Of a stretch of 32,586 bases of DNA, positions 17,439 to 32,586 are shown piece after piece. This DNA is from Synergistes jonesii. Lineage in GTDB: Bacteria > Synergistota > Synergistia > Synergistales > Synergistaceae. Where the stretch lies: the NCBI RefSeq assembly GCF_000712295.1, contig NZ_JMKI01000027.1, positions 8-32,593 of the forward strand, given 5' to 3'. The notes beneath the pieces were generated by a model. It had not been told where the DNA came from. It made no database searches and worked only from the letters and a program-made list of their open reading frames with translations. Every line of letters begins with the position of its first letter. Position 1 is the stretch's first letter. The position numbers and the translations under genes are program-made.

Positions 17439-17467
17439 ACGAGTTCCGCCGGTGAAAATGTTATAAT
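17439..17467 (+). promoter_or_regulatory. Putative promoter of the CdaR-type regulator
   Basis: A perfect -10 hexamer TATAAT lies at 17462-17467 in AT-rich sequence. The -35 region at the ideal distance (ACGAGT, 17439-17444) is poor, so the promoter may need an activator, possibly the regulator itself. It would give a leader of about 100 bases to the start at 17576. Confidence 0.5.
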
Positions 17468-17575
17468 ATGACAATGTACGGCACGAAAGCCGAGGTTTTT
17501 GCCGACGTGCCGCCCGCCCGGAAGCGTGAGCCGCCGCAGGGGTACGGGGAATCGTCGATTCTGGGAGGTAGGGAT

Positions 17576-18820
17576 TTGCTCGCAAAGTACGCGCAGGAAA
17601 TATCTGAGTATCTGAGCTCCATGATGGGGCGAAGCATAATCATCACCGACATCAACGGCATAATCATCGGCGCTCCAGCAAAGGAGAGGATCGGGGAATT
17701 CCACCCGCCGTCCATCCCGTGCATAAAATATAAAAAAATGAGCTTCGACGACGCCGAAGGCGCGAAGAAGCTCGGAGTCTGGTACCCGGGCTCGACGGTG
17801 CCGCTCTTTTACAACGGTCGCGTGATAGGCACGGCTGCGATCGCCGGGGAGCCGGAGGTCGTGCTGCAGTTCACGATGCTCGTCAAGAATCAGATCGAAA
17901 GCATGTTGCGCGAGAAGATATATTCGCCGGGCGCCGGCTCGCCGCAGAAAAAGATAAACGAGCTCGTGCACGACATCGCGTCCTTCGACCCCGCGAGCGG
18001 CGACCACGCGTCGCTTACGCTGAAGGGCGCGCATATCGGCGTCGACCTCGACAGGCCGCGAGGCGCGATAGCGGTCTTCTTTTCCAACTTCTGCGGGCTC
18101 GGCGGCCTTGAAAACAATCCGGTAAAGATCACTTACGAAAATTACAGCGACCCGATAGAGGCCGAAATAGATTACTCGGCGATGCACGGGCGCGTGATAG
18201 TCCTGTTGCGCGAAATATTCCAGGACCCGCAGGCGATAATCGCGAGCGTCGCGCGCGACCGCTTCGCCGTGATATGCCCGAGGGAGACCGACGATAAAAA
18301 GTCTCCAGACGAAGAGATAGAGGCGCTCTGCGACTCCGCAGACAAAATTTACAGCAAGCTTAAGAGCGCGTCGCTTGAAACGATCGTCGGCGTCGGCTTC
18401 CCGGCGCGCAATCTCTTCGAACTGCCCGCCGCCTATAAAAACGCGTGGGAGGTCGCCGGCATCGCGGAGAAGCTTTCGATGCCGCCCGGTGCGTACAGCT
18501 TCAACAGGTTGCTCTTAGAGGGCATCCTGTCGTCGGTTAAGCAGAACGTGGCGCTGCGCTATATCGACAAGAAGCTCTCCGACGCTGAAAGTGAGAGCGA
18601 CGCGCAGATGCTGATAGAGACCTTCAAGGCCTACTGCGAATCGTTCTTCAGCAAACAGAGGGCCGCCGAGAGGCTTCACCTTCACAGGAACACGCTCTCT
18701 TACCGCCTCGCGAAGCTCGAGGAGTACCTCGGCATCTCTATGGAGGACTTCAAGCAGGTCATGGCGTTTTATCTCGCCCTCGGGATACGCGATCTGCATA
18801 AGAAAGGATGCGCGCGCTAA
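17576..18820 (+). CDS. CdaR-family transcriptional regulator
   Basis: The 414-residue protein begins with a sugar-diacid-recognition-type sensor domain (about 1-130, with IIITDINGIIIGAPAKERIG). A central GGDEF-like region follows (about 150-310). The C-terminal helix-turn-helix is of the PucR/CdaR type (FFSKQRAAERLHLHRNTLSY, then RLAKLEEYLGI). Such regulators sense carboxylic acids and usually activate nearby catabolic genes. The adjoining convergent cluster with a TRAP receptor and B12 mutase is the natural target. The start is TTG 17576, with GGGAGG seven bases upstream and the family-typical beginning MLAKYAQEI. An ATG at 17468 would add 36 residues that do not match the family and touches the -10 box. 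Confidence 0.85.
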   Translation: MLAKYAQEISEYLSSMMGRSIIITDINGIIIGAPAKERIGEFHPPSIPCIKYKKMSFDDAEGAKKLGVWYPGSTVPLFYNGRVIGTAAIAGEPEVVLQFTMLVKNQIESMLREKIYSPGAGSPQKKINELVHDIASFDPASGDHASLTLKGAHIGVDLDRPRGAIAVFFSNFCGLGGLENNPVKITYENYSDPIEAEIDYSAMHGRVIVLLREIFQDPQAIIASVARDRFAVICPRETDDKKSPDEEIEALCDSADKIYSKLKSASLETIVGVGFPARNLFELPAAYKNAWEVAGIAEKLSMPPGAYSFNRLLLEGILSSVKQNVALRYIDKKLSDAESESDAQMLIETFKAYCESFFSKQRAAERLHLHRNTLSYRLAKLEEYLGISMEDFKQVMAFYLALGIRDLHKKGCAR

Positions 18821-18850
18821 AGCGTTCTTCGGTAAAAAACAATATAAGCA

Positions 18851-18893
18851 AAAAGCGGCGGAGGCGGGCTTGTTCCCGTCTCCGCCGCTTTCC
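18851..18893. terminator. Bidirectional terminator between convergent genes
   Basis: A 16-base stem, AAGCGGCGGAGGCGGG (18853-18868) / CCCGTCTCCGCCGCTT (18875-18890), is flanked by A-rich sequence on the left and T-rich on the right. It can serve both the regulator gene and the minus-strand dctP gene. Confidence 0.85.
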
Positions 18894-18916
18894 TCCCGTC
18901 GGGCTTGAGGAAGGGG

Positions 18917-19948
18917 CTATTTCGTGCTGTCCGTGATCTTCTTCATTTCCGTCTTGAACTCGGCCATCAGATCCTTGCCCTTCGTTTCGTCGAGCTTGCC
19001 CCACGTCGAAGCGAAGGCGTCCATAATAGGTTTGAGTTCTTTAGGCGTGTACATGTGGACCTTTATGCCCTTCTTGCGCATAAGGTCTAAGTACTTCATG
19101 TCGTTCGCTTCGGCCGTCTTGATGGAGTTGGCCGCCATCTTGGCGGCCGCGGCCTGCAGTATCTTTTTGTCGGCGGCCGAGAGCTTCTCCCATAGCTTGC
19201 CGCTGATCATTATGCCGAGGCATTCAGTGTTCTTGTTATAGTTGTACCAGTGTTTGAGGACGTCGCCGAGCGCCGTGTAGGCCGCGACGATAGAGTAGCC
19301 GGTGTCGCCGTCGCATACGCCCGTCTGGATCGACTGATAAACGTCGGCGAAGGGGATGGAGATCGTGCGGAAGTGCGCGCCCTCGAGCGCCGTCTTGAAG
19401 ACGTCCATGTTCGGTATGCGGAGCAGGACTCCCTTGTCGATCTTCGGGTTAAGCGGCTCCCTCAGTTCTTTCGTGGTGCCCATTCCGACCATGCCCTCAA
19501 GGTACATTCCGAGCAGCTTGACGCCGAGCTCTTTGTTGAACTCGTCCATCTTTTTGAAGAACCACCCGTTCGGGTCGTAGACCTTCGCGACCTGCTTATA
19601 GCTGCTTGTGTAGCCCTGTACGTATATGAGGTCCATTCTGTTGTCGAACTGGCTCGGGAAGGAGATGGCGGCCATTTCTATCGTACCGCGGATGAGCTCC
19701 TCGTAAACGAGCGAATAGTCGCCGAGCTGATTTGCCGGATAGACCTTGACCTGGATGCGTCCCTGCGTCTTTTCTCCGACCTCTTTGGCGAAGCCGTTCA
19801 TAGCGATCGTCGCGTGGTGGTCGGGCGGGTTCTGCCCCGCGAATTTGACGATGAGCGGTGCCGCCTGCGCCCCCTGCGCGAGCAGCGCGGCGGAGATTAC
19901 TGCCGCCGACAGCGATGTGAGGTGCTTGATGACGCCTTTTTGAAGCAT
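18917..19948 (-). CDS. dctP: TRAP transporter solute-binding protein (DctP family)
   Basis: The 343-residue protein has a signal peptide (about 1-29, ending AQGAQA) and the DctP fold. Landmarks are VYPANQLGDYSLVYEELIRGTIEMA, the ligand-clamping arginine region LLRIPNMDVFK, and FADVYQSIQTGVCDGD. It would capture a carboxylate or acidic solute in the periplasm. The membrane subunits DctQ and DctM are not in this window. The gene follows the B12 mutase gene by 38 bases on the same strand, with GGGAGAG before its ATG, so co-transcription is likely. The solute may be the mutase substrate or a precursor. Confidence 0.9.
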   Translation of the reverse strand: MLQKGVIKHLTSLSAAVISAALLAQGAQAAPLIVKFAGQNPPDHHATIAMNGFAKEVGEKTQGRIQVKVYPANQLGDYSLVYEELIRGTIEMAAISFPSQFDNRMDLIYVQGYTSSYKQVAKVYDPNGWFFKKMDEFNKELGVKLLGMYLEGMVGMGTTKELREPLNPKIDKGVLLRIPNMDVFKTALEGAHFRTISIPFADVYQSIQTGVCDGDTGYSIVAAYTALGDVLKHWYNYNKNTECLGIMISGKLWEKLSAADKKILQAAAAKMAANSIKTAEANDMKYLDLMRKKGIKVHMYTPKELKPIMDAFASTWGKLDETKGKDLMAEFKTEMKKITDSTK

Positions 19949-19986
19949 AAGAATCTCTCCCTTTTTTATTTATGGCGTTGCAAAAA

Positions 19987-21753
19987 TTATCTGCTTTCTT
20001 TTCTTGCCTCGGCCGCCCTTGTAGGAAGACGCGACAGGTCTGATACCACCGCGATGCCCATCTCTTCGAGCCTGTCGCTGACGTCTACCGGCGTCGTGCC
20101 CTCTTCGGTGTTCTGGTTGAGCACGCCGCCCATGCAGACCGGGACCTTGTAGTCCTCCTCCTCCATCTCGTCAAGGAGGTTTCTCGAATATTCGAGGGCC
20201 ATTCCGTTGTGCGTGCTTACGAAGATCATCTCCGCGCCGCACTTTGCGGCTTCAGATACGACCTCGTCGGGGTTGCGTTCGGCGCCGATGTTCACGACGT
20301 CCGCGCCGGCCGCGCCGAGGAGGCGGCTTATCAAAAGCAGGCCGTGCTCATGCACGTCAGTCGAGGCGGCGAGGACCTTTATCCCGGAGAGCTTTGCGCG
20401 CGTCTCCGCGCTCTCGTAGCTCGGACGCCATAGCTCCACCTGTTCGAGCGTCCTCGTGAATATGTCGTTGGGAATTGGCGCGTCCTCCGTCGTTTTGCGT
20501 CCCGCGCCGGGGTTGAGCTCCTCTTCGAAGGCGCGCGGGCCGATCTTTTTCAGGACGTAAAGCATCTGTACCGCGTCCCTCGTGTCCACGCCGCAGTCGG
20601 CGAAGAAGGCGAGCGCGTTGGCGTATATCCTCTTTCCCTTTGTGCAGACGGACCTCGCGAAGTTTTTGCTGGCGGTGAAATCGAAGTGCGGATGCATTCG
20701 GCGCGCGATCTTTTCCATGTCGTGGGCCCACTGCTGAATTTCGCATATCTCGTCGAGCGACGGCGCGCGCAGCGCCTCGGTGAAAGGCACTGGCATCAGC
20801 CCGTGTCCCGTCGGGCATTCGATTTGCGCCATGATGTCCCAGAGCAGGTATTCCGTCGCCAGCTTGCGGTTCTCCTCCGGTTCCGTGCTTGCCGAGATCG
20901 TGTCGCCGTAGAACATCGAGCCGACGCAGTCGTGCCCGTGTATCTCGTCGAGCGCGAAGACCCAGCCGGTGCGCTTGATCGGATCCGACACAAGGCCCCC
21001 GACGCAGTGCGCGAGCTTCGCGCCGAGCAGCTCTTCGACGATATATTTTTCGAGATAAGCCCACGCCGCGCCTGTCGCGCAGTCGAGGAAGAGCGCGCCG
21101 AAGCCGTCGTCGAGGTAAGAGTGCATCAGCGTCCCCCTGTCGCGCAGTACGCCCATTATGCCGATGGCTTTGACGGTCTCTATCGTTGTGATGTCTGCGC
21201 GCTTCCACATCGGCGCCTCGTGCGCGAAGAACTGCGAGAGGTTGCCGACCGTCGTTACCCCGGCGCGCAGTGCGGCGACCGCGTTAGTCGTCGACGCTGG
21301 GAAGCCGATTATGAAGTCGCCCATATGAGGCTGTATGGGGGCCGCCCGCCCCACGCCGCGCCAGTCCTCTTCCGTTTCGAGGTACGGCCCGCTCTCCTGC
21401 GGCGCAGATTTTCTCATCTCCGGCGGCAGGGACATCCTGCGGTCGAGGCAGATGCCGGCGCGGTCGACCCTGAAGCCGTTCGCTTCGGCGTAGTCGTAGA
21501 GCCCGCCGAGCGCCGCCTCGGTCTCCTTCCACGTGTTCATGCCTATATGCGCGTGATACATGATGCGCCCCTCTTTTATGCAGCGGCGCTTATATTCCAG
21601 CTCCGACGAGACGTCGAATTTTTCCATGAATTTTGTGCGGCCTATCGTGACCTCGGAGGCTATCCTGCGCGATTCCTCCAGAACAGCGGCGGCTTTGGGA
21701 AGCTGCGCTTCTTTAAGTATTTCTGAAATCCGTTCTTTCAGCGCCGTTATCAT
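19987..21753 (-). CDS. B12-dependent mutase-like protein with fused cobalamin-binding domain
   Basis: The 588-residue protein ends in a cobalamin domain of the base-off/His-on type (about 455-580). DVHEHG at 466-471 is followed after 41 residues by STH and after 26 more by GG, the classical spacing DxHxxG-(41)-SxL-(26-28)-GG, except that the SxL leucine is histidine. The first about 440 residues resemble a TIM-barrel mutase subunit. GFPASTTNAVAALRAGVTTV and the following segment recall the epsilon subunit of glutamate mutase, although similarity is remote. Carbon-skeleton or amino-group rearrangement of an amino or carboxylic acid is the likely reaction; the substrate is unknown. AGGGGG precedes the ATG. 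It lies between an ASKHA ATPase gene upstream and dctP downstream. Confidence 0.75.
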   Translation of the reverse strand: MITALKERISEILKEAQLPKAAAVLEESRRIASEVTIGRTKFMEKFDVSSELEYKRRCIKEGRIMYHAHIGMNTWKETEAALGGLYDYAEANGFRVDRAGICLDRRMSLPPEMRKSAPQESGPYLETEEDWRGVGRAAPIQPHMGDFIIGFPASTTNAVAALRAGVTTVGNLSQFFAHEAPMWKRADITTIETVKAIGIMGVLRDRGTLMHSYLDDGFGALFLDCATGAAWAYLEKYIVEELLGAKLAHCVGGLVSDPIKRTGWVFALDEIHGHDCVGSMFYGDTISASTEPEENRKLATEYLLWDIMAQIECPTGHGLMPVPFTEALRAPSLDEICEIQQWAHDMEKIARRMHPHFDFTASKNFARSVCTKGKRIYANALAFFADCGVDTRDAVQMLYVLKKIGPRAFEEELNPGAGRKTTEDAPIPNDIFTRTLEQVELWRPSYESAETRAKLSGIKVLAASTDVHEHGLLLISRLLGAAGADVVNIGAERNPDEVVSEAAKCGAEMIFVSTHNGMALEYSRNLLDEMEEEDYKVPVCMGGVLNQNTEEGTTPVDVSDRLEEMGIAVVSDLSRLPTRAAEARKESR

Positions 21754-21924
21754 AACGATGCCCCCTAATATTACCTTTCGTCCTTTACGATAAAACTCTA
21801 TCCTAAAAGATTACGGCGGTCACTGTAAATTTTTGAAAAAACTTGAACGTTCGCGGATTTGAATATGTGCAAAATATACAATCAAACGAATTCTTTGAAG
21901 AATTTAAATAAATTATTAAACATA
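21754..21924. promoter_or_regulatory. AT-rich spacer with palindromes upstream of the mutase gene
   Basis: This 171-base gap separates two minus-strand genes and is much richer in A and T than both. It contains a 16-base inverted repeat, AATTCTT-TG-AAGAATT (21889-21904), and the palindrome GAACGTTC (21845-21852). These are plausible operator sites, perhaps for the CdaR-type regulator, and the mutase gene may have its own promoter here. No clear -35/-10 pair stands out, and I see no cobalamin riboswitch. Confidence 0.4.
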
Positions 21925-23553
21925 TTATTGTGCGTTATGCATAAACGCGCGCCCGCCGAGCCTCGCCGAAGCGAGGCGCCGAGGGACTTTCTCCCTTCCG
22001 ATGCACTCGTACTCCTCGCTTATCTCGACGGAAACGCCTTCGAAGCCCATCTGCGCGGCGCTCTTCGTCAGATACGCGGCGAGCGCGGCGCGCGAGCGGG
22101 CCAAAACGTCTTCGAATACCTCGCCCTTTATCTGCCCTTCGGGGAGGAAGGCGTAGAATTCGCCGTCGAAGAAGCTGTGCTGCAGCGAAACGCTGCACGA
22201 AAGAGATAGAGAGCTCGACGCCGCTCCGACCGCGCTCGCTATTTCGGCAAGCTCAGGCACCGTGCAGCCTGCGGCTTTAGCGTAGGCCGGCGCCGGAGCG
22301 CCGACGCATACGCGCCTTGCCGTTCCGAGCCGCGCGAATTCGTCCGACAGCCTTTTTGAGACCTCGCGGCGGACCGCGCGTGCGAAATCGGCGCCGGAGA
22401 GACCTATGCGCTTTCCCAGCCCGACAGACGCGGAAAGGCTTTTCTCGCTGCCGCCGAGGCCCGCCGCGCCGAGCGCCGCCAACGCGTCGGTCGGGGTGTA
22501 GGCGCAATCTTCGCCGGCCGCCGCGCGGCAGCAGGGGACGACCCTTTCGGGGCCTATTTCGAGCGCGCCTTCCTTCGTCACGCAGACTCTGCTGTCTCCT
22601 CCGAGCGCGACCGAGCGGATCTCGAGCGACGGTATCATAGTTCTGTACGCGCCTATCTCGGCGCCGCCCTCCGAGAACAGCGCTTTCCCGCCGCGTACCT
22701 CGCCTATGTCGGTGGAGGTGCCTCCCATGTCGGCGATCAGCGCGTCTCCCTCTTTAACTCCGGCGAGCAGCATCGCGCCCCTCATGCCAGCCGCCGGACC
22801 GGAAAAGAGCGTTTCGAGAGGGAAGCGCGAGCACCAGCTGCCGCATACGAGCGAGCTGTCGCTGCGCACGAACATCACCGGACAGCTGAGCCCGTGCGAG
22901 GCGGCACAGAGCTCCACGCCGCCGATAAGCCTGAGCGTGAGGTCTATCAGAGAAGAGTTCAGATATGCCGATAGCGTACGCTTGACGGAGTTGAGCTTCG
23001 AGCGCGCCATTTCGTGCCCGCAGGTGATTCCGGCGCAGCCCGCCCTGCTGATGATCGCGGCGGCTTCGACCTCGTGCGCCGGGTTGCGCGGCGAGTAAAG
23101 AGAGGATACCGCGAAAAATTCTCCCGCATGCTCCTTCGCGAATCTTGCGACGGCGTTTCTGTCGAGCGGGGTGCGCTCCTCGCCCCAGGAGGTGTGCCCG
23201 CCGCTCACGGAAATGAAGGCCGAAGGCGAGGCGACGGAAAGGATTTCATTTTTTATATGCGGGAAGTCGTCGTAGCCTATGAGGACGAGGGCGACCGGCG
23301 AGCCCTTGCCTTCGAGTATCGCGTTTGTCGCAAGGGTGGTCGAGATGTTCAGAGAAATTATCTCCCGCGGAGATGCGCTGCGTATGAATTTCCCGATCAC
23401 CGCTTCGATGGAGCTTTTATAGTCCAAATGGTTCGTCGGCGCCTTTGTGAAAGCCGCTATTTCGCGTTTCCTCGTATCGTAGAGGACCCCGTCCGTGTTC
23501 GTCCCTCCGACGTCGATGCCTATAGTCAGCCTCTTCCGCGAATCTTCGCACAT
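21925..23553 (-). CDS. Hydantoinase/oxoprolinase A-like ASKHA ATPase
   Basis: The 542-residue protein belongs to the hydantoinase-A/oxoprolinase ATPase family. The first phosphate loop is IGIDVGGTNTDGVL near residue 12. ISLNISTTLATNAILEGKGS is the hydantoinase-A N-terminal signature, and the second phosphate loop is IADMGGTSTDIGEV near the middle. Family members use ATP to activate amide or keto substrates, generally with a partner B subunit; no B subunit is present. Another ASKHA use, reactivation of B12 enzymes as in MutL/GlmL, is suggested only by the mutase gene 171 bases downstream. The start at 23553 fits the usual N-terminus; an upstream ATG at 23637 adds 28 residues with no family match. 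Confidence 0.78.
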   Translation of the reverse strand: MCEDSRKRLTIGIDVGGTNTDGVLYDTRKREIAAFTKAPTNHLDYKSSIEAVIGKFIRSASPREIISLNISTTLATNAILEGKGSPVALVLIGYDDFPHIKNEILSVASPSAFISVSGGHTSWGEERTPLDRNAVARFAKEHAGEFFAVSSLYSPRNPAHEVEAAAIISRAGCAGITCGHEMARSKLNSVKRTLSAYLNSSLIDLTLRLIGGVELCAASHGLSCPVMFVRSDSSLVCGSWCSRFPLETLFSGPAAGMRGAMLLAGVKEGDALIADMGGTSTDIGEVRGGKALFSEGGAEIGAYRTMIPSLEIRSVALGGDSRVCVTKEGALEIGPERVVPCCRAAAGEDCAYTPTDALAALGAAGLGGSEKSLSASVGLGKRIGLSGADFARAVRREVSKRLSDEFARLGTARRVCVGAPAPAYAKAAGCTVPELAEIASAVGAASSSLSLSCSVSLQHSFFDGEFYAFLPEGQIKGEVFEDVLARSRAALAAYLTKSAAQMGFEGVSVEISEEYECIGREKVPRRLASARLGGRAFMHNAQ

Positions 23554-23864
23554 TGCCGCCACCGTCCCGCGATGATATTTTATTTTTGCCGCTATCCTAA
23601 ATAAAATCCCGCAAATTGTCATTATCGGAGGGCACAAGCTGAACGCGGCGCGTCGCCGCTTCGTTGTGCAAAACGCCAGCGGCGCGTAAAAAGCGCCTGA
23701 CGAAGAGAGGCTTCGCCGAAGGGCTCGGCGGGCGGCGCTCCCCTGCGAATTGCGGGCGAGCCGCCTAAAAATAAAAAGGGGCGCGCTGCGGCGAGAAATC
23801 GCCTCTGCGGCCCACTGCCGTTTAAAATTTTATATAGTCATTCAACTTGTATGCGATAACGTAG
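23554..23864. other. Intergenic region without a recognised gene
   Basis: No coding frame here looks real. A GC-rich imperfect hairpin lies near 23727-23763 (GGCGGCGCTC against GAGCCGCC, with an inner CCCTGC/GCGGG), followed by A-rich sequence. It could be a transcript end or a small RNA fold but does not match an RNA I recognise. The promoter of the minus-strand ATPase gene should lie at the left of this region, though I could not pin it down. Confidence 0.35.

Positions 23865-31963: not shown

Positions 31964-32586
<623 letters not shown>

Follow-up and report, generated by a model that had tools for sequence, protein, structure and literature searches.

A conserved Synergistota gene cassette centered on a probable B12-dependent mutase of an unnamed family

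Four genes in a 32,586-bp stretch of the Synergistes jonesii genome (contig NZ_JMKI01000027.1; hereafter the window, whose positions serve as coordinates throughout) were examined: a hyuA-like ATPase gene, a gene for a B12-binding protein and a dctP receptor gene, all on the minus strand, and a convergent cdaR-type regulator gene. The reading that we favor, and regard as fairly probable, is that they form a catabolic cassette around an adenosylcobalamin (AdoCbl)-dependent carbon-skeleton mutase of a family unnamed in the libraries searched, with a HyuA-type reactivase, substrate capture by DctP and sensing by the CdaR-type protein. The mutase would homolyse AdoCbl above its barrel, abstract a hydrogen atom from an amino-acid-like or carboxylic substrate and rearrange the carbon skeleton. 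The ATPase would exchange damaged cobalamin on the mutase, as has been proposed for GlmL with glutamate mutase. DctP would bind the mutase substrate, or an acid related to it, and deliver it to a tripartite ATP-independent periplasmic (TRAP) permease encoded elsewhere in the genome, and the regulator would sense the captured acid. To our knowledge, carbon-skeleton mutases that use B12 are few in number, and each has opened a catabolic route.

The central gene (19987..21753, minus strand) encodes a 588-residue protein recognized from its open reading frame (ORF), Pfam matches, an AF2 model and alignment. It is composed of a predicted triosephosphate isomerase (TIM) barrel, the proposed catalytic domain (residues ~55–441; 20431..21591), and a C-terminal B12-binding domain (residues 456–588; 19990..20388; Pfam B12-binding, E 4.9e-13). 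Motif alignment places the DxHxxG cobalt-ligand motif, here DVHEHG, at residues 466–471 (20341..20358). The ATPase, a HyuA-type member of the acetate and sugar kinase/Hsc70/actin (ASKHA) class, lies in an ORF at 21925–23637 on the same strand; read from the ATG at 23553 (21925..23553) it has 542 residues, as in its homologues, and matches Hydant_A_N (E 1e-27) and Hydantoinase_A (E 9e-29). On the other side of the mutase gene is the 343-residue DctP receptor (18917..19948, minus strand; Pfam DctP, E 3.9e-41). The regulator (17468..18820, plus strand) combines Diacid_rec (E 4e-25), a GGDEF_2-like domain and HTH_30 (E 1e-19), and so has both the Diacid_rec domain and the PucR-type helix-turn-helix of a CdaR-type protein. 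Its longest frame is 450 residues as against ~412–419 in homologues, which suggests that the start lies further in than 17468. A Pfam match to FIST fell under its cut-off and was dropped. The ORFs and Pfam matches reproduce the gene arrangement given in a preliminary description of this DNA; its span of 17439–23553 holds as well, apart from the left edge: the first start codon in the cdaR frame comes 29 bp after it.

The order hyuA–mutase–dctP with a convergent cdaR is a real, conserved four-gene unit in close Synergistota relatives. Full-length homologues of the B12 protein are encoded in 18 of 188 Synergistota genomes, counting the window genome (2.74 Mb; G000, contig C27), with relatives 54–83% identical; the genomes G171 and G172 belong to the same genus. 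A HyuA-like gene adjoins the mutase gene in all 17 relatives. Within the group of 70–83% identity, dctP is next to the mutase gene at 11/11 loci and the convergent cdaR is present at 8/8, counting those loci whose contigs reach that far. These frequencies indicate that the association is more than chance. The DctP orthologues are 73–83% identical, and the intergenic distances are stable (59–197 bp for hyuA–mutase, −32 to 47 bp for mutase–dctP), while the genes flanking the unit vary among these genomes. A second, paralogous clade of the B12 protein is also found among the Synergistota, at 33–36% identity.

The B12 protein probably works as a radical mutase on a substrate that is amino-acid-like or a carboxylic acid. 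It has the features of the AdoCbl mutase class, a B12-binding Rossmann domain with the DxH motif joined to a TIM barrel, the latter as predicted by AF2 (predicted local distance difference test score (pLDDT) 87, from 20 aligned sequences). In VIA-align comparisons the predicted barrel is closest to that of glutamate mutase E (Z 27.7; root-mean-square deviation 3.7 over 386 residues) and next to the lysine 5,6-aminomutase subunit KamD (Z 26.0), with OraE matched too. The whole predicted chain resembles methylmalonyl-CoA mutase, aligned over ~470 residues, and the predicted B12 domain is closest to GlmS (Z 16.1) and other mutase B12 domains. At the level of profiles, searches of Pfam, NCBIfam and the PDB recognized the B12 domain alone, and the barrel gave no match to known mutase barrels. 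By these comparisons the mechanistic class is a known one, and the family coincides with no named mutase among those tested.

Glutamate mutase (GlmE and GlmS, with GlmL/MutL) shares with the cassette the predicted barrel fold, a B12 domain and an adjacent ASKHA ATPase gene. It differs in having separate S and E subunits, whereas the cassette protein is one fused chain with a dissimilar barrel sequence, and in its GlmL partner; Synergistota members of our clade 1 (see below) have a HyuA-type partner instead, plus DctP and CdaR in the cassette. The protein has no GlmE Pfam match, and hhalign of its barrel against Synergistota GlmE, represented by a shallow two-sequence profile, gave a probability of 0.1 percent. 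For a 2-methyleneglutarate mutase (MgM) yardstick we searched for PrpF in the taxonomic family of E. callanderi and obtained five genomes (loci L179–L183), which we take, judging by eye from gene order and an MgM length of ~614 residues, to hold nicotinate clusters of the Eubacterium barkeri type. Each has a 613–615-residue B12 protein at the position expected for MgM. MgM is likewise a single chain of ~600 residues with a C-terminal B12 domain (~30% identity) and an ASKHA gene nearby, but hhalign aligned it with our family at columns 457–555 only, within the B12 domain, and the barrels, unrelated in sequence, do not align. The neighbours of MgM are nicotinate genes, Mii (PrpF) and DmdAB; none of these adjoins the cassette among the window ORFs. 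Because it lacks a GlmE profile match and MgM matches its B12 domain only, the 588-residue protein is neither GlmE nor MgM.

It might still be a diverged glutamate or 2-methyleneglutarate mutase that catalyzes a known reaction from a new protein family, an explanation we think improbable. The fold of the barrel, nearest to GlmE, is consistent with it, as is the absence of GlmE (PF06368) from the window genome, where the role of glutamate mutase is thus vacant; PF06368 is rare in the taxonomic family as a whole. Two extra arginines in clade 1 could hold a dicarboxylate. Against this stand the dissimilarity of the barrel sequence to both GlmE and MgM and the lack of methylaspartase, Mii and DmdAB genes in the cassette. 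Methylmalonyl-CoA and isobutyryl-CoA mutases have the same layout of barrel and C-terminal B12 domain; the cassette protein, however, has no Pfam match to MM_CoA_mutase at E 0.1, and no MeaB-type GTPase gene was seen beside its gene.

The residues conserved in an alignment of up to 62 members bear on both substrate and cofactor. Asp466 and His468 are invariant (60/60 rows), and Gly471 is replaced by Ala in 25 of 38 clade-1 rows. Arg98, Arg261 and Arg329 are invariant, and Arg114, His67 and His69 are found in all rows but one; Arg105 and Arg106 are conserved in clade 1 only. From this pattern Arg98, Arg114, Arg261 and Arg329, together with the 105/106 pair of clade 1, are candidate carboxylate ligands. 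The same alignment weighs heavily on an aminomutase assignment, that is, an enzyme dependent on both pyridoxal 5′-phosphate (PLP) and B12, of the lysine 5,6- or ornithine 4,5-type or the leucine 2,3-aminomutase for which no gene is assigned. The resemblance of the barrel to KamD and OraE, the B12 domain and the amino-acid transporters encoded in the neighbourhoods would all suit such an enzyme. In KamE and OraE, however, the PLP-binding lysine presumably lies 11 residues past the cobalt-ligand histidine, and a lysine at that position is found in 0/60 testable rows and in 0/5 plasmid-encoded sequences (65 in total); the near-invariant Lys55 and Lys402 are located outside the B12 domain. We regard the aminomutase assignment as quite unlikely. 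A Pfam search with OAM_dimer, intended to supply an aminomutase yardstick, had no match anywhere and was uninformative, and six long B12 proteins considered for the same use were set aside as MetH-like.

Least probable of all is a role in corrinoid-dependent methyl transfer, as methyltransferase or as methyl carrier. The isolated B12 domain does score against the MtaC, MtbC and MetH models, but GlmE and KamD have the folds nearest to the barrel, MetH falls far below them (Z ~14), and the 588-residue protein has no Pfam match to the B12-binding cap domain (PF02607) that precedes the Rossmann domain. There is no adjacent activase or methyltransferase gene; the partners are ProC-like, GlmL or HyuA. 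The suggestion of an unnamed B12 mutase-like enzyme thus stands, with mutase architecture and without identity to GlmE/GlmS, MgM, a PLP-dependent aminomutase or a CoA-mutase. Both results that the preliminary description had said would undo its proposal, a neighbourhood not conserved in relatives and a protein proving to be a corrinoid methyltransferase or known mutase, failed to appear. A B12 protein family predicted as novel in 2009 is set apart by its description, having an N-terminal B12-like domain and adjoining octopine dehydrogenase (PMC2667541). Among open-access papers we found nothing relevant on hydantoinase or TRAP genes accompanying an uncharacterized B12 mutase, and papers on rumen Synergistota contained no passage concerning this locus.

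The HyuA-like ATPase is, by sequence comparison, GlmL-like in position and not in family: at the profile level it matches GlmL only remotely (E 4.5e-5) and over its N-terminal half alone. Given where its gene lies and that HyuB is missing, reactivation of the mutase is a more likely role for it than substrate hydrolysis. HyuB is encoded neither in the window cassette nor anywhere in the genomes of 15 cassette-bearing relatives in the taxonomic family, two of which are single-contig assemblies; the window genome has one HyuB, on another contig. With HyuB missing from all 15 relatives, the ATPase is unlikely to belong to a hydrolase or carboxylase of two subunits. The HyuA subunits of hydantoinase/oxoprolinase and acetone carboxylase have the same domains and fold, but the cassette protein is shorter at its C-terminus. 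The ASKHA ATPase reported in the preliminary description is accordingly confirmed as HyuA-type, with a role as reactivase more likely than one as a separate pathway enzyme.

Several observations weigh against a reactivase. The closest folds to the AF2 model (pLDDT 87.8) are acetone carboxylase beta/HyuA-type subunits, which are catalytic (Z 27.6 over 486 of 542 residues); diol dehydratase reactivase scores well below them (Z 13.4). Wherever a HyuA-type protein has a known function, it is a catalytic subunit of a carboxylase or hydrolase. The ASKHA–mutase pairing represents few independent evolutionary events, and clade-1 members outside the Synergistota have neither HyuA nor GlmL beside the mutase, so the mutase gene need not have an ASKHA gene next to it. 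The ATPase could be a substrate-activating enzyme of the same pathway that phosphorylates an amide, lactam or ketone, with the mutase acting before or after it, an alternative to which we give a minor but real share of probability. Its closest sequences are indeed subunits of hydantoinase, caprolactamase and acetone/acetophenone carboxylase, and gamma-glutamylcyclotransferase-like neighbours at 12 other loci could yield lactams of the 5-oxoproline type. The lack of HyuB argues the other way, as does the absence of the HyuA-like gene from the loci with the cyclotransferase-like gene.

It is plausible that DctP takes up the mutase substrate. The receptor carries an LLRIP arginine motif, whose arginine we liken to the one that binds carboxylate in other TRAP receptors. 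Of the proposed TRAP uptake of an acid, the conserved place of DctP in the cassette is borne out; a weakness is that the window and most cassette genomes encode an orphan receptor, and only G138 and G170 have DctQ and DctM next to it. Those two genomes have a complete TRAP set and a gene for a pyrroline-5-carboxylate reductase-like (ProC-like) protein just upstream of hyuA. The window genome encodes ~16 full-length DctM-like proteins elsewhere.

The spacer between hyuA and the mutase gene (21754..21924, minus strand) contains predicted elements identified by alignment of 13 loci and a pattern scan. A box of the type TGCAYAAA lies at window positions ~21865–21872 in the alignment, and the scan located a promoter-like element, TTTACA-18-TAGGAT, at 21829–21800. 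The box and a TTTACARTGAC-like element are retained in most of the 13 loci and are a candidate operator and promoter. Because this promoter-like block is conserved, a single transcript is uncertain, and hyuA and the mutase–dctP pair may be transcribed separately. A copy of the spacer box, TTGCACAA, is also present upstream of hyuA (~23664–23671). No cobalamin riboswitch was found in the window at Rfam thresholds.

A single scan of named genomes yielded 61 loci of the B12 family, which spans about eight bacterial phyla; several members come from metagenome bins, so that single-phylum assignments may be wrong. In the tree, clade 1 has the Synergistota on one side of a branch (Shimodaira–Hasegawa-like approximate likelihood ratio test (SH-aLRT) 86) and otherwise includes Desulfobacterales, Pseudomonadota, Myxococcota, Chloroflexota, Bacteroidota, Aminicenantes and others. 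Clade 2 (SH-aLRT 99) comprises Clostridia, some Synergistota and Planctomycetes, and clade 3 (SH-aLRT 100) is carried by rhizobial plasmids. A plasmid search placed clade 3 in Shinella, Sinorhizobium, Neorhizobium and Phyllobacterium; its proteins retain the DxH motif and the arginines, lack the PLP lysine, and are labeled in annotated plasmid records only as ‘cobalamin-dependent protein’ or ‘hypothetical protein’. The family occurs in aerobic Rhizobiales and Roseobacteraceae as well as in anaerobic fermenters, and the earlier assignment of the locus to fermentation is too narrow. It is often plasmid-borne in plant-associated rhizobia, yet has no specific name in those records. In two Oscillibacter loci (L091:7157-8557 and L111:9902-11227), a barrel-only paralogue (441–466 residues, 33% identity, no B12 domain) precedes GlmL and a full-length mutase; by analogy, the two proteins possibly pair up as alpha and beta chains, the arrangement of bacterial methylmalonyl-CoA mutase.

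Genes that recur beside the mutase outside the window point to the type of substrate. GlmL is found beside clade 2 at 24 distinct loci, and a GlmL-like gene is present in 5/5 MgM clusters. The ProC-like gene occurs at 23 distinct loci in all (4 in Synergistota), beside most clade-1 members outside the Synergistota and near the plasmid clade. Those clade-1 members also have gamma-glutamylcyclotransferase-like genes (12 loci), Dpp-type peptide ATP-binding cassette (ABC) transporters (8) and GntR regulators (~13), and SNF-type and LIV transporters are among the family neighbours. On the rhizobial plasmids the neighbours are LIV or polar amino-acid ABC transporters and FAD oxidoreductases, with a set of proline racemase, FAD oxidoreductase, DapA and aldehyde dehydrogenase in Phyllobacterium. 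The recurring reductase, transporters and cyclotransferase-like genes suggest that the substrate is amino-acid-like or a related organic acid. Where the preliminary description had proposed an acid, the partners outside the Synergistota point to an amino-acid-like compound rather than any organic acid. Members of the family probably mark a catabolic step that has not been described so far.

A more specific and distinctly speculative possibility is that the substrate is a cyclic imine or imino acid of the proline, hydroxyproline or pyrroline type, whose unsaturated C=N carbon would migrate by addition–elimination. This is suggested by the ProC-like neighbours and by proline racemase-family genes near the mutase at four distinct loci, one within a hydroxyproline-type set. 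The reductase-like dehydrogenase would interconvert amine and imine, and the mutase would move the C=N carbon. In known mutases, thioester carbonyl or acrylate groups migrate by addition–elimination; we know of no B12 mutase in which the group that migrates is an imine.

The cassette offers a defined candidate with few partners to test (ATPase, receptor, regulator and imine reductase), for which substrate identification through receptor binding is practical. The family could also show whether HyuA-type ATPases serve as reactivases of B12 enzymes.

Other neighbours are more scattered. In three Ruminiclostridium loci TRAP genes directly precede a clade-2 mutase gene, and in one of the three the stretch shown includes DctP, both permease genes (small and large) and a regulator of CdaR type. 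A 4-hydroxybutyryl-CoA dehydratase-like gene lies near the mutase in E. callanderi and the Synergistota genome UBA4066 (L066:18859-20322 and L092:4218-5678; L092 against PDB 1u8v, E 2e-172), with mutases of two clades; in both clusters there are also pieces of 2-oxoacid oxidoreductase, along with a DUF362-like gene that recurs. A membrane transporter-like protein of ~370 residues, with no Pfam or NCBIfam match in the one member tested, recurs near the mutase at seven distinct loci (L105:11803-12960; also L112, L104 and L100). At the edges of the window, an open-ended minus-strand frame at 3–938 resembles a transposase helix-turn-helix protein, and a 16S rRNA gene begins at 31964–32586 and extends past the window end.

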